Shown in pieces: positions 19,853 to 33,578 of a DNA stretch of 64,000 bases (the stretch's first letter is position 1; the number at the start of each line of letters is the position of its first letter). Location: positions 496,001-560,000 of the forward strand of contig NZ_CP107716.1 in the NCBI RefSeq assembly GCF_025854335.1, read 5' to 3'. Made by a program: the position numbers and the translations under genes. This stretch comes from Pelagibacterium flavum (GTDB lineage: Bacteria; Pseudomonadota; Alphaproteobacteria; Rhizobiales; Devosiaceae). Below the pieces are notes generated by a model that worked only from the letters and a program-made list of their open reading frames with translations, was not told the DNA's origin and did no database searches.

Positions 19853-20047
19853 TCAGGATTTGGTTGCGGGATAGCCGGCGGCGGCCAGCGCGGCTTCGAC
19901 GTCGGTGAGCCTGGCGGACGTCTTGATGGCGATGGTCTTTCGCTCCAGATCGGGGGTGACCTGGCTGGAGGCGTCGAGCGCCTTGAGGGCATCAGTGATG
20001 GTCTTTACGCAGCCATCGCAGGACATGCGCGCGATATGATACTCCAT
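19853..20047 (-). CDS. copZ: Heavy-metal-associated (CopZ-like) copper chaperone
   Basis: A 64-aa single HMA domain with the metal-binding motif MSCDGC at residues 8-13. The fold pattern beta-alpha-beta-beta-alpha-beta is evident, ending AALAAAGYPATKS. It would carry Cu(I) in the cytosol to an exporter or regulator. The start is certain: AAAGGAGG lies 5 nt upstream of the ATG. No copA or cueR gene is present in the window. Confidence 0.85.
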   Translation of the reverse strand: MEYHIARMSCDGCVKTITDALKALDASSQVTPDLERKTIAIKTSARLTDVEAALAAAGYPATKS

Positions 20048-20128
20048 GAGAGCCTCCTTTGCCGTGTCTCATGGAGCAACCGATAGACCTTCCCATCATG
20101 GGAAGGTCAAGAGGCAATCGTCGCCGTG

Positions 20129-21367
20129 TCAGGCCGACGCCGGAGCGGTGGCCGTCGGGGATCCGTCCACCTGTCTGGGCGGCGGGAAGGCGAGGGCCAT
20201 CAGGGCGGCGGCGACGCCGATGGCGGCCGAGGCGATATAGAGGAAATGATAGCTGCCATAGGTATCGTAGAGCCAGCCACCCCCGACAGGGCCGAGGGCC
20301 ATGCCGATCGATGAGGTCATGACGGCTGCGCCCAGAACGGTGCCCATGACGTGGGCTCCGAAATAGTCGCGGGCCAGCACGGCATAGAGCGGCATCACCC
20401 CGCCATAGGCCATGCCGAGGACGACCGCCAGCATGTAGAAGTCGGTCAGCTGGGTGACGTAGATATAGGCGTAGATGCCGACCGATTGCAGCGCGAGGCC
20501 GGCGATGATGACTTTCTTGACCCCCAGCCGGTCGGCGGCAAGCCCGAAAAGGACGCGTCCAAAGAGACCCGCAAGACCTTCCACGCTGTAGATCGAGGCG
20601 GCGGCAAGGGCGGGCACGCCGCACAGCATGGCATAGCTCACCGTATGGAAGATCGGGCCCGAATGGGCGGCGCAGCACAAAAAGAAGGTGGCGGCGAGAA
20701 CGATAAATTGCGGCGTGCGCAGGGCGGCAAAGGCTGTGGTTGGCGCGGGCTTTTGCGGGGCGACATCCTGGCCGGGAGCCGGTTCGGCGTTCTCGGAAGT
20801 TTGAGGTGCGCGGCGGATCAAAAGGCCGGCGGGCAACAGAAGCGCCGTGGCGCCGATGGCGGTCATCGACATGGCGCTGCGCCAGCCGAAGGCTTCGATC
20901 AGAACCGATGCAAACGGCGTCATGATCATGGGGGCGACACCGGCGCCCAGCGAGACCAGGGACACGGCGAGCGAGCGGTGCTTGTCGAACCAGCCGACGG
21001 TGGTTGCCATGAGCGGGGCAAAGAACGCGCCGCCCGCCATGCCGACAAGCCCGCCATAGGCGAGCTGGAAGACGACGAGATCGGATGTGGTGCTGGAAAG
21101 GAAAAGGCCACCGCCCAAGATCAGGGCGGCGATCAGGACGACGGGGCGGGCGCCGATCCGGTCGGTCAGGGTGCCCCAGACAAAGCCGGCGACGCCCATG
21201 ACGACAAAGCCGATGGTCATGGCCATGGAAATGCCGGCGCGCGTCCAGCCGGTCTCGTCGGCGATGGGTTGAAGATAGACGGGCAGGGCAAACATCGCCC
21301 CCATTGCCACGCAGGTGATTATCGCGCCCGTGGCGACGATCACCCAGCCATAGTGCAGCCTTGCCAT
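20129..21367 (-). CDS. Major facilitator superfamily transporter
   Basis: A 412-aa carrier with 12 predicted membrane helices. It carries the loop 2-3 motif WGTLTDRIGARP and the equivalent in the second half FGLAADRLGVKK. It begins MARLHYGWVIVATGAI, typical of the OFA/monocarboxylate-like MFS group. The ATG at 21367 has GGAGG 9 nt upstream; the frame extends to 21391 through another ATG. The substrate is unknown. It precedes copZ on the same strand, but the 81-bp gap leaves the link uncertain. Confidence 0.86.
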   Translation of the reverse strand: MARLHYGWVIVATGAIITCVAMGAMFALPVYLQPIADETGWTRAGISMAMTIGFVVMGVAGFVWGTLTDRIGARPVVLIAALILGGGLFLSSTTSDLVVFQLAYGGLVGMAGGAFFAPLMATTVGWFDKHRSLAVSLVSLGAGVAPMIMTPFASVLIEAFGWRSAMSMTAIGATALLLPAGLLIRRAPQTSENAEPAPGQDVAPQKPAPTTAFAALRTPQFIVLAATFFLCCAAHSGPIFHTVSYAMLCGVPALAAASIYSVEGLAGLFGRVLFGLAADRLGVKKVIIAGLALQSVGIYAYIYVTQLTDFYMLAVVLGMAYGGVMPLYAVLARDYFGAHVMGTVLGAAVMTSSIGMALGPVGGGWLYDTYGSYHFLYIASAAIGVAAALMALAFPPPRQVDGSPTATAPASA

Positions 21368-21568
21368 TTTGAGGTTCCCTCCATGCGACATTGAACCGAG
21401 GACGCATGGGATGAGCGGTCGCCGACAGGTCTTTTGAAAAAAAATATTGCACGGTCTTTCGGCAGCCAGCCGCAGTGTAACCGGTTTCAGCGATATGGTT
21501 AGGAATTCTTAAACGCTTCATGGACAAACTGCGGCCAATTAAACCACAGGGCGGGAGACGGCCGAAAA

Positions 21569-21859
21569 ATGGCGAAATCGCAAGTTCAGTCCGTGGCGCT
21601 GCCCCGGATTGTCGATCTCGATGCGCTGGACGACGTTGCCGAAAAGCTGATCGGCGCATTGTCGGCAGGATCGGTCAATGTCGACGCCTCAGGTGTCGAA
21701 CGCGTCTCCACCAATGCCCTGTTCATGCTTTTGAGCGCCGCAGAGACGGCCAAGAAAGCCAAATTTGCCTTCACAATCTCGGGCGCGAGCACCTCGGTTG
21801 TCGCGGCCATCGAAAAGCTGGGGCTAAACCCGGCGTTCGAACCCGTTCTCAAGGGATAG
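21569..21859 (+). CDS. STAS-domain protein at the head of the chemotaxis operon
   Basis: A 96-aa single STAS domain. VNVDASGVERVSTNALFMLL matches the phosphorylation-loop region of anti-sigma-factor-antagonist/STAS proteins, with the potential target Ser or Thr in VSTNAL. It lies 8 bp before cheY and is clearly part of the same transcript as cheA. STAS proteins occur at this place in several rhizobial che operons, but their role in chemotaxis is not settled. Confidence 0.85.
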   Translation: MAKSQVQSVALPRIVDLDALDDVAEKLIGALSAGSVNVDASGVERVSTNALFMLLSAAETAKKAKFAFTISGASTSVVAAIEKLGLNPAFEPVLKG

Positions 21860-21866
21860 TATCGAT

Positions 21867-22226
21867 ATGCGCGTTCTTACTGTCGACGATTCGCGGACCA
21901 TCCTCGCGATGCTGCACCACACGCTCACCAATGCCGGGTTCGAGGTGCTTCAGGCCGAGAATGGGCAGGTGGGGCTCGATGTCCTGGCGCGTGAGGCCGT
22001 CGATGTGGTGATCACCGACATCAACATGCCGGTGATGGACGGCATCGAATTCATCAAGAACGTCAGGGCGACCGGCAAGCACCAGAGCCTGCCGATCCTG
22101 ATCCTGACCACCGAAACCAGCCAGGACAAGCGCGACCAGGGGCGCGCTGCGGGCGGGACCGGCTGGATCGTCAAGCCGTTCGATCCCGAAAAGCTCATTT
22201 CGGTCATCAACAAGGTCGTTCACTGA
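21867..22226 (+). CDS. cheY: CheY-type single-domain response regulator
   Basis: A 119-aa receiver domain. The acidic pocket is VDD at residues 6-8, the phospho-acceptor is Asp51 in VVITDINMP, and the conserved Thr and Lys are in LILTTE and IVKPFDP. It receives phosphate from CheA, encoded next. A second cheY lies at 33189, so one may bind the motor and the other act as a phosphate sink; which is which is not decidable from sequence. Confidence 0.93.
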   Translation: MRVLTVDDSRTILAMLHHTLTNAGFEVLQAENGQVGLDVLAREAVDVVITDINMPVMDGIEFIKNVRATGKHQSLPILILTTETSQDKRDQGRAAGGTGWIVKPFDPEKLISVINKVVH

Positions 22227-22269: not shown

Positions 22270-24489
22270 ATGAGTGACCTCGACGAATTCAAGGCCACAT
22301 ATTTCGACGAATGTTCCGAACTGCTGCTCGAACTCGAGGAGCAGTTTTCGGCCATCCAGGAGGGTGACCGGGACGGGGACAGGCTCAATGCCGTGTTCCG
22401 GGCCATCCACTCGATCAAGGGCGGTGGCGGGGCCTTCGGGTTCGACGCGCTGGTCAAGTTCGCCCACAGCTTTGAAACGCTGCTCGACTATGTGCGCGAC
22501 GGAAGGGTGGAATTGAGCGAAGACGTCGTCGTTCTTTGCATCCGCTCCATCGACATCGTGGCCGATTTCGTGACGGCGGCGCGCGAGGGGGAAACACTGG
22601 CGGCCGATTACGGCGCCGTGGAAAAAGCCCAGTTCGACGCGTTGGCAAGGGGCGAAGCGGCTCCGGGCGCAGACCCGGCCCAGGACGAAGAACCGATGGA
22701 CGATTTCGACATCGATTTCACGCCCGTCGCTGTCAATTTCGACGCCGACAAGCCCATGGCCTCGGTTGCGCCCTCTGCCGACGGGGCGAGCGTGTGGACG
22801 ATCAAGTTCACGCCCTTTTCCACGCTCTACGAGCGGGCCAATGATCCGCTGCTGCTGTTCCGCGAACTGGGTTTGCTGGGCGAGATGAGCGTCGAGCCGA
22901 ACCTCTCCCCGATCCCGGCGCTGTCGGCGTTCGAGCCGTTCGGGGTCTATTGCTCGTGGACGATAACGCTCGTTTCGGACAAGGCAAGCGAAGAAACGAT
23001 CCGCGAGGTCTTCGAGTTCGTGGATGGCGATTGCGAAATCGTCATCGAAAAAGGCGGTGCCGCGCCCGTGATGATCGAGGATGACCTGCCCAGCTTTGCG
23101 GCGCTGGCCGAAGAGGCCAAATCCGAGCGCAAGTTCATTCCGAGCGGGGAACCCGACGATATCGTCGTGCCCGAGATTGCGGACTTGCCAGAGCCGCCGG
23201 TTTCAGAGGAGACCCGGGATGCACCGGCACCGTCCGCTGCACCCAATGTGGTGCCGATGGCGACCAAGCCGGCTGAACCTGCCGAAGAGTCCGGATCGGG
23301 ACGCCCGGTGGGCATGAGCTCGATCCGCGTCGATCTCGACAAGGTGGACCGCGTGGTCAACATGGTGGGCGAACTTGTCATCACCCAGTCGATGTTGACC
23401 CAGCAGATGGATGACGCCATCCGTGACCGCTATCAGGAGCTGGTGCGGGGCATCGAGGTTCTGGCCCAGACAACCCGCGGGCTGCAGGACGCCGTGATGG
23501 CCATCCGTGCCCAGCCGGTCAAATCGGTGTTTTCACGCATGCCGCGCCTGGTGCGCGAGCTGGCGTCCAAGACCGGCAAGAAGATCAAGCTCGAAACCAT
23601 CGGCGAGAACACCGAAATCGACAAGACGGTGATCGAGCAGCTTTCCGATCCGCTGACCCATATGGTGCGCAATTCGGCCGACCACGGGATCGAATCCCCC
23701 GAAAAGCGCATGGCGAGCGGCAAGCCCGAAATCGGCACCGTGCGGCTCTCAGCCGAACAGGCGGGCGGCAATATCCTGATCATCGTCGAAGATGACGGGG
23801 GCGGGATCAATCGCGAGCGGGTGCTCGAAATCGCCCGCGAGCGCGGCGTGGTCGGACCCGACCAGCAATTGACCGAGGAGCAGATCGACAACCTGATCTT
23901 TGCGCCGGGCTTTTCGACCGCGTCGGAGGTTTCCGACATTTCCGGCCGTGGCGTTGGCATGGACGTTGTCCTGTCCAACATCAAAAAGATCGGCGGTTCG
24001 GTGCATGTGAGAAGCTGGACCGGCAAGGGCACGCGGATGACGCTGCGCCTGCCCTTAACGCTGGCCGTGCTCGACGTCATGCTGGTCAAGGTGGCCGGCA
24101 GCCCCTATGTGATCCCGCTCTCTTCCATTGTCGAAACGATCCAGAATTCGCGCGCCGATTTCGGGTATATGCCCTCGGGCGGCAAGGTTTTGCAGGTGCG
24201 CGGGGAATATGTGCAGGTGGTCGATCTGGCCGACCGGTTCCAGATGGTCTCGCAAAAGGACGACGCGGAGGGGTTTGTCGTGCTGTGCGAGGCAGAAGGC
24301 AATTCCAAGATCGCGCTGGTTGTGGACGACATCATCGGCCAGCAACAGGTGGTCATCAAATCGCTTGAAGAGAATTTTGAACGCATCGACGGCATCGCGG
24401 GAGGCACGATCCTTGGCGATGGTAACGTTGCGTTGATTGTTGATGTGCAATCTCTCAAGTCGGGAAATGCGCATCAGAATGCTGCATAG
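22270..24489 (+). CDS. cheA: Chemotaxis histidine kinase CheA
   Basis: This autophosphorylating kinase couples receptors to CheY and CheB. It has 739 aa. The N-terminal HPt domain carries His47 in AIHSIKGGGGAFGFD. A linker and P2-like region follow (roughly 130-340). The dimerisation domain starts at SSIRVDLDKVDRVVNMVGEL. The ATPase has HMVRNSADHGIE (N box) and DISGRGVGMDVV (G1 box). The last 140 residues form the CheW-like domain ending with GDGNVALIVDVQSL. All signature residues are intact. It starts 43 bp after cheY. Confidence 0.96.
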   Translation: MSDLDEFKATYFDECSELLLELEEQFSAIQEGDRDGDRLNAVFRAIHSIKGGGGAFGFDALVKFAHSFETLLDYVRDGRVELSEDVVVLCIRSIDIVADFVTAAREGETLAADYGAVEKAQFDALARGEAAPGADPAQDEEPMDDFDIDFTPVAVNFDADKPMASVAPSADGASVWTIKFTPFSTLYERANDPLLLFRELGLLGEMSVEPNLSPIPALSAFEPFGVYCSWTITLVSDKASEETIREVFEFVDGDCEIVIEKGGAAPVMIEDDLPSFAALAEEAKSERKFIPSGEPDDIVVPEIADLPEPPVSEETRDAPAPSAAPNVVPMATKPAEPAEESGSGRPVGMSSIRVDLDKVDRVVNMVGELVITQSMLTQQMDDAIRDRYQELVRGIEVLAQTTRGLQDAVMAIRAQPVKSVFSRMPRLVRELASKTGKKIKLETIGENTEIDKTVIEQLSDPLTHMVRNSADHGIESPEKRMASGKPEIGTVRLSAEQAGGNILIIVEDDGGGINRERVLEIARERGVVGPDQQLTEEQIDNLIFAPGFSTASEVSDISGRGVGMDVVLSNIKKIGGSVHVRSWTGKGTRMTLRLPLTLAVLDVMLVKVAGSPYVIPLSSIVETIQNSRADFGYMPSGGKVLQVRGEYVQVVDLADRFQMVSQKDDAEGFVVLCEAEGNSKIALVVDDIIGQQQVVIKSLEENFERIDGIAGGTILGDGNVALIVDVQSLKSGNAHQNAA

Positions 24490-24653: not shown

Positions 24654-25142
24654 ATGGAAGCGCTTGGTCTTCGCGACGAATATTCGGACACAACGGCAGG
24701 AGCCAGCCAAAATTCGCTGCAGCTGATTGCCTTTTCCATCGACGAACAGATCTATGGCGTCGAAATTACCACAGTGCGCGAAATCCGCGCCTGGAACGGG
24801 GCGACGCCATTGCCCAATACGCGCGAATATGTGCGCGGGGTCATCAATCTGCGCGGCACCATCGTGCCGATCTTCGATCTGCGCGCCCGGTTCGGGGATG
24901 GCAAGACCAACCCCACAAAGAACCATGTCGTGGTGGTGATGAGCGTGGGGGAAAAGTGGATCGGCATCCTGGTCGATGCGGTCTCGGACATCCTGACGGT
25001 TTCCAAGGACGACATCCATGCGGTGCCCGAGGGCAATTCGGTCGATACCGAGCTCTTGAACGGGATCGTCACCCATGACAGCCGCATGGTCGGGCTGATC
25101 GACCTGGCCGCCGTTGTTTCGGGCGCCAAGATCGACGCCTGA
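24654..25142 (+). CDS. cheW: Chemotaxis adaptor protein CheW
   Basis: A 162-aa protein of the CheW fold that links receptors to CheA. Characteristic blocks are YGVEITTVREIR, YVRGVINLRGTIVPIFDLR and WIGILVDAVSDIL. It follows cheA after a 164-bp gap filled mostly by a repeat, and is followed by a good terminator, so it ends this transcript. Confidence 0.94.
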   Translation: MEALGLRDEYSDTTAGASQNSLQLIAFSIDEQIYGVEITTVREIRAWNGATPLPNTREYVRGVINLRGTIVPIFDLRARFGDGKTNPTKNHVVVVMSVGEKWIGILVDAVSDILTVSKDDIHAVPEGNSVDTELLNGIVTHDSRMVGLIDLAAVVSGAKIDA

Positions 25143-25956: not shown

Positions 25957-26310
25957 CTAGAAAAACTCGACTTCGCCGGTATTGGTGCGGGCGGCGATGC
26001 CCGAGAGGGATTCGTCGCGCAACTCGTCGAGAGTGAGGGTCGACCAGACGCCCTCGGCGGCCTGGGCGTCGTTGCCATCGGAGAGATCGGCGATCTTGCG
26101 GGCGGCGTCGGCCATGTTGCGGCAGCGCTGTTCGATGCGGTCCTGCATCTGGAGGGCGACGACGATCTGGCGGATGGCGGTGGAGCGGGCGGCGCTGCAA
26201 TCGATCGAGGTGTCGCCGAGCGTGAGGAGGCTGGCGGTGATGCCATCAACCATTTCCGCCGTCTGGCGAGCGGTTTCTTCCAGCTCTCTGGCCAGTTTGT
26301 GCAAGCTCAT
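25957..26310 (-). CDS. Small CheZ-motif chemotaxis protein, CheT-like
   Basis: A 117-aa helical protein. The central helix reads IVVALQMQDRIEQRCRNM, containing D57-R-I-E-Q61, the DxxxQ pattern seen in CheZ-type CheY-P phosphatases and, as I recall, in CheT of Sinorhizobium meliloti. Length and position beside cheD fit that protein. The N-terminal part (residues 1-35) also looks helical and amphipathic. The ATG at 26310 was chosen from the start of helical sequence; the frame extends to 26376. It is divergent from cheD with 216 bp between. The assignment rests on motif, size and context only. Confidence 0.6.
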   Translation of the reverse strand: MSLHKLARELEETARQTAEMVDGITASLLTLGDTSIDCSAARSTAIRQIVVALQMQDRIEQRCRNMADAARKIADLSDGNDAQAAEGVWSTLTLDELRDESLSGIAARTNTGEVEFF

Positions 26311-26526
26311 GCACGTAACCCCCGATTCACAATCATGGCGATCATAATGGCAGACTTCTAAACCGATGCTTGCCAATTTCCCCTATCCGTACTCATCGCC
26401 GGTTAGGGTTAGCAAATGGCTAACGAATGGCGCGATAGGTTCGGAAAAATTCCAATGGGAAACCCGGGCCATGCCGGGTTTTCGAAAAGCTCCAGGGAAG
26501 CGGTTAATGCCGTTTGAATTGTCTTG

Positions 26527-27096
26527 ATGCCCGATACCTTCACCCGTGGCGTGGTGACCACCGTCCACCAGGGTGATTGTGTAATATCGAACGAGCCCGA
26601 TGCGACGTTTTCGACGATTCTGGGATCGTGCATTTCGGCTTGCGTGCGCGACAGGGTGGCGCAAGTGGGGGGCATGAACCACTTTCTATTGGCCAGCCAG
26701 TCAGGATCGTCCAAGGACAGGTTCGGGGAATCGGCACGCTATGGCGCGTTCGCCATGGAGCAGCTCATCAACATGGTTTTGAGCAAGGGCACCGGGCGCA
26801 AGAGCAATCTCGAATTCAAGGTGTTCGGGGGCGGCAACATTCATGCGGGCATGCATGATGTGGGCATGAAGAACATCGAGTTCGTGCGCGAGTTCCTGAG
26901 CAATGAAGGCTATGTGCTTTCGAGCCAGGACATGGGGGGCAATTATGCCCGGCGGGTGATGTTCCAGCCCTTTGCCGGGCGGGCCTTTGTCAAACGGCTC
27001 GATTCAACCGACAACGCAAGGCTGGTGCGCGAAGAACTGGCGATCGCCAAACAGCAGCCCGCCAAGCCTGTGCTCGACGATATCGAATTGTTCTAG
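26527..27096 (+). CDS. cheD: Chemoreceptor glutamine deamidase CheD
   Basis: CheD deamidates glutamines of chemoreceptors and modulates adaptation. In this 189-aa protein the catalytic cysteine is Cys35 in ILGSCISACV and the histidine is His52 in GGMNHFLL. The family block FKVFGGGNIHAGMHDVG follows, then ARRVMFQPFAGRAFVK. The ATG at 26527 is preceded by an in-frame TTG; neither has a strong ribosome site. It is alone on this strand and separated from cheR/cheB by the EamA-MocR pair and the MCP gene. Confidence 0.92.
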   Translation: MPDTFTRGVVTTVHQGDCVISNEPDATFSTILGSCISACVRDRVAQVGGMNHFLLASQSGSSKDRFGESARYGAFAMEQLINMVLSKGTGRKSNLEFKVFGGGNIHAGMHDVGMKNIEFVREFLSNEGYVLSSQDMGGNYARRVMFQPFAGRAFVKRLDSTDNARLVREELAIAKQQPAKPVLDDIELF

Positions 27097-29578: not shown

Positions 29579-31150
29579 GTGGCGCGACGCTTTCTTATTG
29601 TCGGCAGACCATTGGCTCGAACCCGCCTCGTTACCGCATTACTGGCCCTCTGGTCGGCGACCCTCGCGGTCTGCCTGTTTCTTGCCGTCAATTTCTCGTC
29701 CCTTTCGTGGTGGCCGCTGGCGGTTGGCGGGATCTGGGTGGCGGCAATCGCCGTCAGTTTTGCGGTCGCGATCCTTGCCGACCGGGCACAGCGGCGTGTG
29801 CTCTCGAGCCTGGGCGAGGCGGTGGGGAGCGGGCCGATCGGCAAGAGCCGCGAAATCGAGCATATGCGGGCCATCACCGCCAATCTGTGCCTGCGGCTGG
29901 AACGCGCCATGACCTATTGCACAGCGTTCGAAACGCTGGCGCGTCCGGCCATGCTGGTCGATGGACAGGGCATTATCGTCAAGATGAGCGCGGGGCTGAC
30001 GGCGCTTGCGCCTGAATGTGCCGAGACCGATACGGCGGCCGCGCTGCTGGGCATAGCCGTTGAGCTGGGGGAAACGCCGACAAGTCATGCGGTGGCGCTT
30101 TCAGGGCAACGCCATATCGCAATCGCCAGCCCGCTGGCTCCGGATCGCTGGCTGATCGAGTTCGACCGGCCGGGGCGCGTGGTTCCCGCGAGTGTGCTCG
30201 ATGAGATCGGGCAGGCGCTGGCGGGAGGGCACACAGGCTATCGGATTGCTGCGGACGTCGTCGAGGACGTGCCTGAACTGGACCTGGTCAATGCGGGGCT
30301 GGCAACGCTCGATGCGGCGGCGGCGCGGCTCGATGCCCTGGCGCAGGGTGCCCCGATCGACGATGAGGGGGCCAATGACGGGCTGGCGGCGCGGATCACC
30401 GGGCTGGCGCGGCAGATCGAGGGAATCGATGCCGAACGCGAAACGGCGCTCGACATGCACAGGCGGGCCCGCGAGCGGCTGGAAAAGGTCGGAGCGCTTG
30501 TTGAGATCTGCCGTGAAGCGGCGCAGACCCTGACACGGTCGGCGGACGATGCGCGCAATCACATGGAAACGGTGCGCGGCGAGATCGATGCCGGACGCTC
30601 GCTTGCCGGACGCACAGCCGAGGGTGCGAGGGGCCTCAGCGCGGATTTTGAAAAGGCCAGGGCGTCGGCGGAAGAAACAAGCGAGCGGGTTGCGGCGGTA
30701 ACCGGGCTGGTGGGCAAGATCGACAAGCTGGTGGCCGGGATCGAGGAAGTGGCTTTCCGCACCAATCTTTTGGCGCTGAACGCTGCCGTTGAAGCGGCGC
30801 GGGCCGGGGAAAAGGGCGCAGGGTTTGCCGTGGTGGCCAGCGAAGTGCGCGAGTTGGCTCAAGCCAGCGCCAAGACCTCCAAGGACATAAGGGCATTGGT
30901 CAAGACCGGGCTGGGGGAAGCCGATGCCGGGGCGCAAGGGGCGCAGGTGCTGGCCGAGACCATGAGCACCGTTACCGCTCATTTACTGAATTTAAGTGAG
31001 GAGACGGCAATGATCGGCTCCAGTCTCGCAAGCGGCCATGAAGCGCTTGCGGCGGCGCGCTCCGATGTCGATCTGATCGGGGAGCGGGCACAACAACAGG
31101 CCGAGGCGCTCCAAGCGCAGCCGGCGGGGAAATCGGTCGGCAGAGCCTAG
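29579..31150 (+). CDS. Methyl-accepting chemotaxis protein with a PAS-like module
   Basis: A receptor of 523 aa. Two N-terminal membrane helices (about 17-40 and 45-66) are separated by only a few residues, so there is hardly any periplasmic domain. A PAS-like segment around [20 protein letters not shown] (residues 120-200) points to an internal or membrane-associated signal. The signalling tip is [20 protein letters not shown]. There is no C-terminal CheR-tethering pentapeptide and the methylation helices are poorly marked. The GTG start has no close alternative ATG. It heads the cheR-cheB-cheY operon. Confidence 0.85.
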
Positions 31151-31191: not shown

Positions 31192-32052
31192 ATGGACAAT
31201 GGTGAATTTCCACTCAGCGAAAGAGAATTTTCGCGAATCCGCGAGCGCGTCTATCGCGTAGCGGGCATTTCCCTTTCCGACGCCAAGCGCACGCTGGTGA
31301 TTTCGCGTCTCTCCAAGATCGTGCGCAGCTTGTCGTTATCCGGGTTCGACGCCTATATCGATTTTCTCGAGACGCGGGGACAGGCCGAGGACGATCAGGA
31401 TTTCGTCAACGCGCTCACCACCAACCTGACACGGTTCTTCCGCGAGGATCATCATTTCGATCATCTCACGAGCTATGTGGCCGGACTGATCGCCAAGCCG
31501 CAACGCGTGGGCAAGGGCGCCAGGCCGCGCTTGCGCATCTGGTCGGCGGGATGCTCGACCGGGCAGGAGCCCTATACGATCGCGTTGAGCCTTCTGGCCG
31601 CGTTTCCCGAGCTCAAGCGCTGGGATTTCCGCATCCTTGCCACCGATATCGATTCCAACGTCGTGAACAAGGCGGCGCGAGGCATCTATCCGGCGAGCGA
31701 GCTCAATGGGCTCTCTGCGCAACGGGCCGGGTTGTTTGAAAAGACGGCAACCGGGGACATCCTCATCCCGAGCGCGGCGCGGGAGCTTGTCACCTTCAAG
31801 CTGCTCAATCTCATCGAACCCTGGCCGGTCAGCGGCCCGTTCGATGCCATTTTCTGCCGGAACGTGGCGATCTATTTCGACAAGCCCACCCAAGGGATGC
31901 TGTTTGACCGGCTCGGCCAGGTGCTGGCCCCGGACGGGTTCTTGTATATCGGTCACTCAGAAAACCTTCAGGCCGTTTCCAAGGGCTTCAGACTGGTGGG
32001 CAAGACTGTCTATCAACGCAAGGCAAATGCCGATGCAAAGGATGCAGCATGA
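31192..32052 (+). CDS. cheR: Chemotaxis protein methyltransferase CheR
   Basis: CheR methylates receptor glutamates with S-adenosylmethionine. The 286-aa protein has the N-terminal helical domain (EREFSRIRERVYRVAGISLS) and the methyltransferase domain with IWSAGCSTGQEPYTIA, the SAM-binding loop of CheR, then DAIFCRNVAIYFD and FLYIGHSENL. Its stop overlaps the cheB start as ATGA. Confidence 0.95.
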   Translation: MDNGEFPLSEREFSRIRERVYRVAGISLSDAKRTLVISRLSKIVRSLSLSGFDAYIDFLETRGQAEDDQDFVNALTTNLTRFFREDHHFDHLTSYVAGLIAKPQRVGKGARPRLRIWSAGCSTGQEPYTIALSLLAAFPELKRWDFRILATDIDSNVVNKAARGIYPASELNGLSAQRAGLFEKTATGDILIPSAARELVTFKLLNLIEPWPVSGPFDAIFCRNVAIYFDKPTQGMLFDRLGQVLAPDGFLYIGHSENLQAVSKGFRLVGKTVYQRKANADAKDAA

Positions 32053-33098
32053 GCAATATCAGGGTCCTGGTCGTTGACGATTCGGCACTCATTCGGGACG
32101 TTCTTTCAAAAACGCTGGCGCAAGAGGGCGATATCACGGTGGTGGGCACCGCCCACGATCCGCTGGACGCACGCGACAAGATCAAGGCGCTCAACCCCGA
32201 TGTCGTGACGCTCGATATCGAAATGCCCAACATGAACGGGCTGGCCTTTTTGCAAAAGATCATGCGGCTGCGACCGCTTCCCGTGGTGATGGTATCCACG
32301 CTGACCACCAAGGGCGCCTCGGAAACCATGCTGGCGCTTGAACTGGGCGCTGTCGATTTCGTTGCCAAGCCTGGCACCGAGGCCGCGGGCGGGCTCGATG
32401 CGTTCGGTGCGACGCTGCGTGAAAAGGTGCGCTTTGCGGCGCAGTCGGACGTGCAAGCCTCGGCGCATCGCGCCCCCGCGCCCGACCTTCCGCTCAAGAC
32501 GGCGGCGGCGCCCGAGGGCGCGCTGATTGCCATTGGCGCTTCGACCGGTGGTGTGGAAGCGATCCGGCAGGTGCTCTCCTGGATCCCCGCCGATTGTCCG
32601 CCGATCGTGATTGCCCAGCACATGCCCAAGGGGTTTACCGGGCGGTTTGCCGCGCGGCTCAACGAGTTGGTGCCGGTGCGGGTGATCGAGGCCGCCGACA
32701 GGATGGCGCTCGAGCGGGGCACGGCTTATGTCGCGCCGGGCGATTTTCATCTGCGGGTGGAAAAGACTTCCGGCCAGCTCAAATGCCGGGTGACCCAGGA
32801 CGAGGTGACTTCGGGGCACCGGCCGAGCGTGGATGTGCTTTTCAACTCGGTGGCGCGAGTGGTGGGACCGATGGCGGTGGGGGCGATCCTGACGGGCATG
32901 GGGCGCGACGGCGCGGCGGGTCTTAAGGCCATGCGCGAGGCCGGAGCGTTCACCATCGGGCAATCGCGCGGTTCGGCGCTGATCTATGGCATGCCCAAGG
33001 CGGCGTTCGAGATCGGCGCGGTGGTCGAGGAGGCGCCCGTGGAAAAGGTCGCCGGGCGGCTGGTCGCGGCCCTGATGAAGCTCAAGGCCGCAGCTTGA
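32049..33098 (+). CDS. cheB: Protein-glutamate methylesterase CheB
   Basis: A 349-aa CheB with an N-terminal receiver (Asp56 in VVTLDIEMPNMNG) and a C-terminal methylesterase. The catalytic triad is Ser165 (IGASTGGVE), His191 (AQHMPKGFT) and Asp287 (GMGRDGAAG). It removes methyl groups from receptors and can deamidate glutamines. It is translationally coupled to cheR. Confidence 0.96.
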   Translation: MSNIRVLVVDDSALIRDVLSKTLAQEGDITVVGTAHDPLDARDKIKALNPDVVTLDIEMPNMNGLAFLQKIMRLRPLPVVMVSTLTTKGASETMLALELGAVDFVAKPGTEAAGGLDAFGATLREKVRFAAQSDVQASAHRAPAPDLPLKTAAAPEGALIAIGASTGGVEAIRQVLSWIPADCPPIVIAQHMPKGFTGRFAARLNELVPVRVIEAADRMALERGTAYVAPGDFHLRVEKTSGQLKCRVTQDEVTSGHRPSVDVLFNSVARVVGPMAVGAILTGMGRDGAAGLKAMREAGAFTIGQSRGSALIYGMPKAAFEIGAVVEEAPVEKVAGRLVAALMKLKAAA

Positions 33099-33188: not shown

Positions 33189-33578
33189 ATGCCAAAGGCC
33201 AGCGCAGTCAGCGTCCTCATTGTCGATGACCAGCAATCGATGCGGGGCATCTGTAAATACATCCTCACTCAGCTCGGGTTCAAGGACATCGTGGAGGCTA
33301 AATCGGGCCGCGATGCGCTGACCAAGCTTGAAAAGACCAGTGTCGATCTGATCATTTCCGACTGGAACATGGACGATGTCGACGGGCTGACGCTGCTCAA
33401 GGTGATCCGCAAGCACCCGCGCACGCAAGGGATGCCCTTCATCATGGCGACCGGCCGCTCCGACAAGGAACAGGTCAAGGAAGCCATCGAGAGCGGCGTG
33501 AACAATTACATCATCAAGCCCTATGACGCCGGAACGATGAAGAAACGCATCGAGGCGGTTATCGGCGCGCTGAGCTGA
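33189..33578 (+). CDS. cheY: Second CheY-type response regulator
   Basis: A 129-aa receiver domain with DD at 13-14, phospho-acceptor Asp58 in LIISDWNMDDVDG, MATGRSDKEQV and the conserved Lys in IIKPYDAG. The WNM-DDVDGL stretch is typical of the motor-binding CheY of alphaproteobacteria and of E. coli CheY. It lies 90 bp after cheB and ends the operon, with a hairpin after the stop. It is the better candidate of the two for the flagellar switch. Confidence 0.93.
   Translation: MPKASAVSVLIVDDQQSMRGICKYILTQLGFKDIVEAKSGRDALTKLEKTSVDLIISDWNMDDVDGLTLLKVIRKHPRTQGMPFIMATGRSDKEQVKEAIESGVNNYIIKPYDAGTMKKRIEAVIGALS

Follow-up and report, generated by a model that had tools for sequence, protein, structure and literature searches.

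How is the CheY signal ended in a chemotaxis system that has no CheZ? The question is raised by a 64,000-nucleotide stretch of the Pelagibacterium flavum genome (contig NZ_CP107716.1, positions 496,001 to 560,000; hereafter the window), in which a small gene lies beside cheD on the opposite strand. For rhizobia without CheZ, a second CheY serving as a phosphate sink was described as ending the CheY signal in the available excerpts of one article (PMC8429497), and the more recent account of rhizobial signal termination, likewise available in excerpts, is CheT (PMC12654446). In these excerpts, CheT of Sinorhizobium meliloti has a DXXXQ motif and a predicted CheZ-like structure, dephosphorylates one of two CheYs and binds CheR. 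The initial annotation of the window proposed that the small gene may be a relative of CheT, moved out of the operon and transcribed divergently, in a che region without cheZ. Our analysis indicates that the gene quite probably encodes a small helical phosphatase of phosphorylated CheY (CheY-P), which works like CheT and CheZ and stands in the place of CheT in Devosiaceae. We infer its phosphatase activity, its dimeric state, its choice of CheY and the partner of its tail.

Translation of the minus strand gave the 117-amino acid (aa) protein with LQMQDRIEQR and the D57/Q61 pair that had been claimed for it; the plus-strand frame of the same interval is open as well, but is not the gene. The absence of cheZ was also borne out, since the Pfam CheZ family was not found at E ≤ 10 in the whole genome (a single contig of 3.93 Mb, of which the window is a 64-kb part), in which CheC and other phosphatase families were not searched for. 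The DxxxQ protein matched no Pfam family above cut-off (T4SS appeared at E 0.03, below its cut-off), nothing in NCBIfam and no PDB sequence better than E 0.2. A profile search with its family matched nothing but Mediator subunits and designed coiled coils (best E 0.0018), which were set aside as not useful. A search of 5.8 billion proteins returned 319 relatives at E ≤ 0.01; among those listed most are nameless, the names given being mainly "hypothetical protein" and a few odd JGI labels (P0036, P0040 and P0076). The query was aligned with the best 120 of the 319 relatives (121 rows), which are 51-95% identical to it; the closest named relative among the matches listed is from Pelagibacterium sp. 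H642 (87% identical). D57 and Q61, whose conservation in orthologues the initial annotation had left to be checked, were invariant in 121/121 rows, the query included. They are among 19 invariant residues: E12, T13, Q16, L31, Q54, Q56, D57, R58, Q61, R62, C63, W89, L92, D95, E96, L97, G104, A106 and F117, the last residue of the protein. An AlphaFold2 model (mean predicted local distance difference test score (pLDDT) 77.5; predicted template modelling score 0.58) has helices at residues 3-31, 38-53 and 56-79, and its residues 105-117 have pLDDT <50. The DxxxQ family is real, conserved and unnamed, and it most likely ends the CheY signal in Devosiaceae.

The most regular feature of the gene is its divergent pairing with cheD. 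The position beside cheD was confirmed by Pfam (PF03975, E 1.3e-24); cheD, whose listed first codon is TTG with ATG as the next codon, is on the plus strand and the DxxxQ gene on the minus strand, and the two are therefore head to head. The DxxxQ profile matched 125/136 Devosiaceae genomes, in 122 of them over the whole length or nearly so, the incomplete matches being partial in G771 and G675 and split in G753, where the gene extends over two frames (G753:C1:1683520-1683869). CheD was found in 127/136 genomes. In each of the 125 carriers, the DxxxQ gene shares its contig with an adjacent cheD that is oppositely oriented and head to head with it; 327-471 bases separate the DxxxQ match and the CheD domain. 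The co-occurrence gave a Fisher p of 1.6e-12 with kinship ignored, and 9/136 genomes have neither gene, so that part of it may reflect loss of the whole che set. There are two genomes with CheD only. In G750 the contig breaks off just upstream of cheD, and the CheD tail DDIELF is kept. G785, of the same genus and listed as 100% complete, has no DxxxQ match; its cheD (domain at L207, G785:C25, 128156-128431) overlaps cheR, and its CheD ends in RGTR without the acidic DIELF tail, so the DxxxQ gene and the CheD tail may have been lost together. Divergent pairs were also seen outside Devosiaceae, in another family of the order (L014, 30% identical, with STAS and MCP (methyl-accepting chemotaxis protein) neighbours) and in another lineage of the class (L146:1384-1968, with LQSADRLTQR and the end EEDVTFF). 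The divergent arrangement that had been noted was seen in all 125 Devosiaceae carriers; "moved out of the operon" infers a direction of change.

A CheT profile (A2) was built from 8 rows, which were open reading frames (ORFs) beside cheD holding Q-x(0-3)-D-xxx-Q; L028, L029, L031 and L032 were dropped, having no such ORF after cheD, the contig-end locus L045 was left out, and some start codons were chosen by hand. Run on 297 genomes of the order, the profile found 15 full-length CheT genes, every one directly after cheD on the same strand (matches L061-L064, in long frames, were left out). The genes of Rhizobium johnstonii 3841 are ordered STAS, cheY, cheA, cheW, cheR, cheB, cheY, cheD, CheT ORF, fliF, with cheB-cheY-cheD-cheT-fliF on one strand; the Rhizobium CheT ORF is called "chemotaxis protein CheT" in some NCBI/UniRef records and "hypothetical protein" in others. 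The che set of the window is that of R. johnstonii 3841 with the DxxxQ gene in place of cheT: next to cheD, with two cheY genes and a gene in the CheS place. The orientation differs, CheT being codirectional and downstream of cheD and the window gene divergent. The window protein likewise resembles CheT as a small all-helical protein, within the range of about 115-135 aa, with a central LQxxDxxxQ in the second part of a hairpin and a disordered acidic tail, which ends in FF or LF in most. The AlphaFold2 model of R. johnstonii CheT has much the same outline as that of the window protein, its helices including 16-35, 37-45 and 53-80 (mean pLDDT 79.9; tail <50).

When the profile of the window family (A1, 36 rows) was compared with that of CheT (A4, 18 rows), 103 columns aligned at a probability of 89.5 and E 2e-6, and both DxxxQ and the terminal F fell in register. 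In a second comparison, in which gaps were treated slightly differently, A1 scored 41.3 against CheT and 12.3 against the reversed CheT profile; 0/60 column shuffles (maximum 18.0) and 0/60 shuffles of seven-column blocks (maximum 24.1) reached it. An alignment that included a divergent relative from another family (A5) scored 49.8, and natural helical controls, four MCP windows compared with each family, scored 14.0 to 20.7. When the DxxxQ block was masked 26.8 was left, and when the tail was masked 31.0. As judged from these profiles, the CheT link is two short blocks in the same order and with the same spacing, and it strongly supports the same kind of function and moderately supports common descent.

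With both blocks masked the score fell to 16.5, or 21.9 with A5, which is near the null; the A2 profile at E ≤ 0.01 matched none of the 13 Devosiaceae genomes among the 297 of the order; and comparison of the window family with 18 CheZ sequences was not above shuffles, 5/50 of which reached the score. The DxxxQ family is not filed as a member of CheT, because the A2 search misses it and the shared signal is confined to the two blocks. The relatedness proposed in the initial annotation is thus upheld as CheT-like, and membership in CheT is not proven; the profile similarity expected there to CheT or CheZ was found for CheT and not for CheZ directly. CheT itself was not above shuffles when compared with CheZ (3/50 reached the score), and direct homology to Pfam CheZ found no support for either family.

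The explanation that survives best beside a CheT-type phosphatase is convergence, in which an unrelated helical hairpin gained a DxxxQ motif and an acidic aromatic tail. The near-null score after double masking favours it, as does the tendency of helical profiles to draw chance matches; the CheT profile also matched keratin, at E 3e-5, and helical matches were therefore trusted only with reversed, shuffled and masked controls. We consider it rather unlikely, as the order, the spacing, the length and the neighbouring gene all agree and the MCP tails described below match both families; a convergent protein would still be a phosphatase by function.

The same module was found at the end of receptor-like proteins. 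Profiles of the window family were run on the 297 genomes of the order and on 289 of the class, and 11 MCP-like proteins ended in a DxxxQ module (L015-L018, L023 and L025 in the order, at E 1.5e-4 to 0.088; L145 and L147-L150 in the class). Among the other order matches of A1, L019, L020 and L027 were left out, L021, L022, L024 and L026 have no such tail, and the stand-alone L146 was kept out of the MCP-tail set. These C-termini, which differ from the window protein in being fused behind an MCP signalling domain (present in 9/9 scanned of the 11), carry QFQDRxxQR, usually LGEMR or similar, and an acidic end [IV][ED]LF. Eight of the 11 genes adjoin che genes: CheB lies beside L017, L018, L023, L025 and L147, CheY and an Hpt protein beside L148 and L149, and L016 comes just after cheR-cheD-cheB in G058. 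L145 and L150 adjoin a STAS protein with a HATPase or receiver-SpoIIE protein, and the one neighbour of L015 that was scanned is a Fic protein. Several of the MCP-like genes are in the orders cheB-MCP-STAS-receiver/SpoIIE or MCP-cheY-Hpt, and their proteins are soluble. The MCP tails gave the best profile match of the window family (63.4 over 77 columns, DxxxQ and the terminal F again coinciding), a score that is partly selected because the tails were found by that family's own profile. Against CheT, which had no part in their selection, the tails scored 41.7, and 0/50 block shuffles reached it.

The residues in front of the D of DxxxQ were compared with those of CheZ. In the available excerpts of one article, AXXFQ before DXXXQ is conserved in CheZ (PMC7750401), and our CheZ sequences have Q at -1 in 17/18 (the exception being L166), 16 of these with A at -5. 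Counted by alignment column, the window family together with L014 has A at -5 in 115/118 sequences, Q at -3 in 118/118, Q at -1 in 117/118 and F at -2 in 0/118. All 11 MCP tails read QFQ from -3 to -1, and CheT (alignment A7 of 69 rows, 56 of them from the best 120 of 978 matches) has Q at -3 in 69/69, some of the positions counted for CheT and for the MCP tails being fixed by the search patterns. At -1, CheT has I, L, V or M where the window family has Q. By these residues, the active-site helix of the window family and of the MCP tails is intermediate between those of CheT and CheZ. Of the traits of CheZ, described in part in the same excerpts (PMC7750401), the window protein shares the DxxxQ motif preceded by A (-5) and Q (-1), a predicted helical hairpin and a putative C-terminal tether. 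Unlike CheZ, it does not match Pfam PF04344, is about half as long, lacks F at -2 and TGQ, and ends in another peptide. The MCP tails scored 27.0 against CheZ, which 0/50 shuffles reached, with a weak hhalign probability of 16.5. CheC is the CheD-linked CheY-P phosphatase of Bacillus and Thermotoga. The tie of a phosphatase gene to cheD would be common to CheC and the window gene; the window protein differs in its DxxxQ helix and in the absence of a Pfam CheC or FliN-like domain, cheC elsewhere in the genome not having been searched for.

The roles proposed for D57 and Q61 follow the mechanism of CheZ. CheA would phosphorylate both CheYs, and the DxxxQ protein would remove the phosphate from one of them in the manner of CheZ. 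Its helices would form a hairpin, two copies of which, by comparison with CheZ, probably pair into a four-helix bundle. D57 and Q61, in the second half of the hairpin, would reach into the active site of CheY-P, where Q61 would position the water for its attack and the conserved lysine of CheY would be held by D57. The flexible GEVEFF tail would tether the protein to a partner, probably one that CheD also uses through its DDIELF end, and perhaps CheR by analogy with CheT.

The similarity of GEVEFF to the end of CheD, DDIELF, was examined in the whole genome. [DE]x[DE][LF]F followed by a stop occurs at 8 places, compared with 6 for a backward control, and the pattern as such is therefore not enriched. 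A true stop is present in 5/8: in the DxxxQ gene, cheD, an 85-aa ORF of uncertain status and two that are not gene-like. At most of the loci retrieved, a tail of this kind ends CheD as well as the DxxxQ or CheT protein encoded beside it. Devosiaceae have CheD ending in [DS]DIELF or VDIELF with a DxxxQ protein ending in [ED][LF]F, and Rhizobium has CheD in SIEFF with CheT in GDFDFF, some CheT having a few residues beyond.

These tails bear on an alternative in which CheD is the main partner and the protein is a CheC-like factor holding or regulating CheD, with a coupled phosphatase linking adaptation to signal shut-off. The head-to-head cheD of all 125 carriers, the 15/15 CheT genes directly after cheD, the similar terminal peptides, the 5 true-stop occurrences that include these two genes and the joint absence of the gene and the CheD tail in G785 would all fit. 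A common tail suggests a shared third partner equally well, though; the pattern is no more frequent than its backward control, G785 is one case, and 9/136 genomes lack both genes, and we hold this alternative to be unlikely. Least likely of all, and improbable, is a scaffold docking on CheR or on the receptor array instead of a phosphatase, with a tail that mimics the receptor pentapeptide and a DxxxQ helix serving another contact: S. meliloti CheT binds CheR in the excerpts of PMC12654446, and xWxxF is the C-terminus of 7 of the genome's 10 MCPs above cut-off, so that the pentapeptide site should exist, but the tail G[ED]x[ED][LF]F differs from that end in lacking the W of the pentapeptide, and the invariance of D and Q at 51-95% identity (best 120 of the 319 relatives) fits catalysis better.

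Within the preferred interpretation, a CheY-P phosphatase of CheT/CheZ type, a broader proposal is offered tentatively and may well be wrong. A single mobile CheY-P phosphatase module could be made up of the DxxxQ helix, a short segment, (L/D)EL or GEM, and a tail of the acidic type -[IVF]-[ED]-[LF]-F; it would occur by itself as CheT and as the divergent Devosiaceae gene, and as the end of soluble MCP-like proteins in che operons. The tail could then be a docking code shared with CheD, with deamidase and phosphatase competing for, or delivered to, one partner, and adaptation would be linked to shut-off as it is by other means in CheC/CheD.

The genes around the DxxxQ gene are a complete chemotaxis set. 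The order is STAS, CheY, CheA, CheW, a GNAT gene, the DxxxQ gene, CheD and an EamA transporter, followed by a GntR/aminotransferase-type regulator, an MCP, CheR, CheB and the second CheY. Coordinates are given in the table.

Table. Chemotaxis genes and sequence elements of the window, with the evidence for each (positions counted from the first nucleotide of the window).
Feature	Position	Strand	Evidence
STAS protein, in CheS place before cheY and cheA	21569..21859	+	PF13466
CheY, first copy, before cheA (CheY1 place), possible substrate	21867..22226	+	PF00072
CheA	22270..24489	+	Hpt, H-kinase_dim, HATPase_c and CheW domains
CheW	24654..25142	+	PF01584
DxxxQ protein gene, unnamed family, predicted CheZ/CheT-type CheY-P phosphatase	25957..26310	-	Translation; 319 relatives; 125/136 Devosiaceae genomes
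C-terminal peptide GEVEFF, predicted disordered docking tail	25960..25977	-	Last F 121/121; pLDDT <50; CheD end similar
DxxxQ motif, codons D57 to Q61, in predicted helix 56-79	26128..26142	-	Sequence, conservation, model
Inverted repeat GTTAGC-N5-GCTAAC between both genes, candidate operator	26408..26424	.	Upstream-region comparison
cheD, head to head with the DxxxQ gene, C-terminus DDIELF	26524..27096	+	PF03975
MCP without C-terminal xWxxF pentapeptide	29579..31150	+	PF00015
CheR	31192..32052	+	PF01739
CheB	32049..33098	+	PF01339
CheY, second copy, after cheB (CheY2 place), possible substrate	33189..33578	+	PF00072

The STAS protein of the window matched the STAS protein before cheY-cheA in R. 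johnstonii 3841 (E 3.3e-6, 29% identity), and it is possible that CheS proteins generally belong to the STAS type. Ten MCPs in the genome pass the cut-off, and the one in this cluster matches most weakly. In a stretch of about 1.5 kb in front of the che genes (19992-21520), the long frames tested (19992-21659 minus, 20351-21394 plus) have no Pfam family.

The inverted repeat between cheD and the DxxxQ gene was found exactly in 7/13 printed Devosiaceae upstream regions besides that of L014 (L001, L003, L004, L006, L007, L200 and L201), and it is single in the window even at one mismatch. In 16/209 loci a relaxed GTTAGS repeat was present, always in the cheD/DxxxQ region; some regions are represented by two loci each. 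A general chemotaxis operator was considered and found no support in this distribution; none of the MCP loci of this genome, which often stop short of the MCP promoters, has the palindrome.

We found no description of a DxxxQ protein in Devosiaceae or of DxxxQ tails on MCP-like proteins in a search that left subscription journals mostly outside. If the interpretation as a CheY-P phosphatase is true, a further family, with the gene in 125/136 Devosiaceae genomes, would gain a signal-termination enzyme that is mostly "hypothetical" in databases. CheT would then be part of a wider module, also fused to receptor-like proteins, and the similar tails of CheD and the phosphatase would make a link between adaptation and signal termination testable with short peptides.
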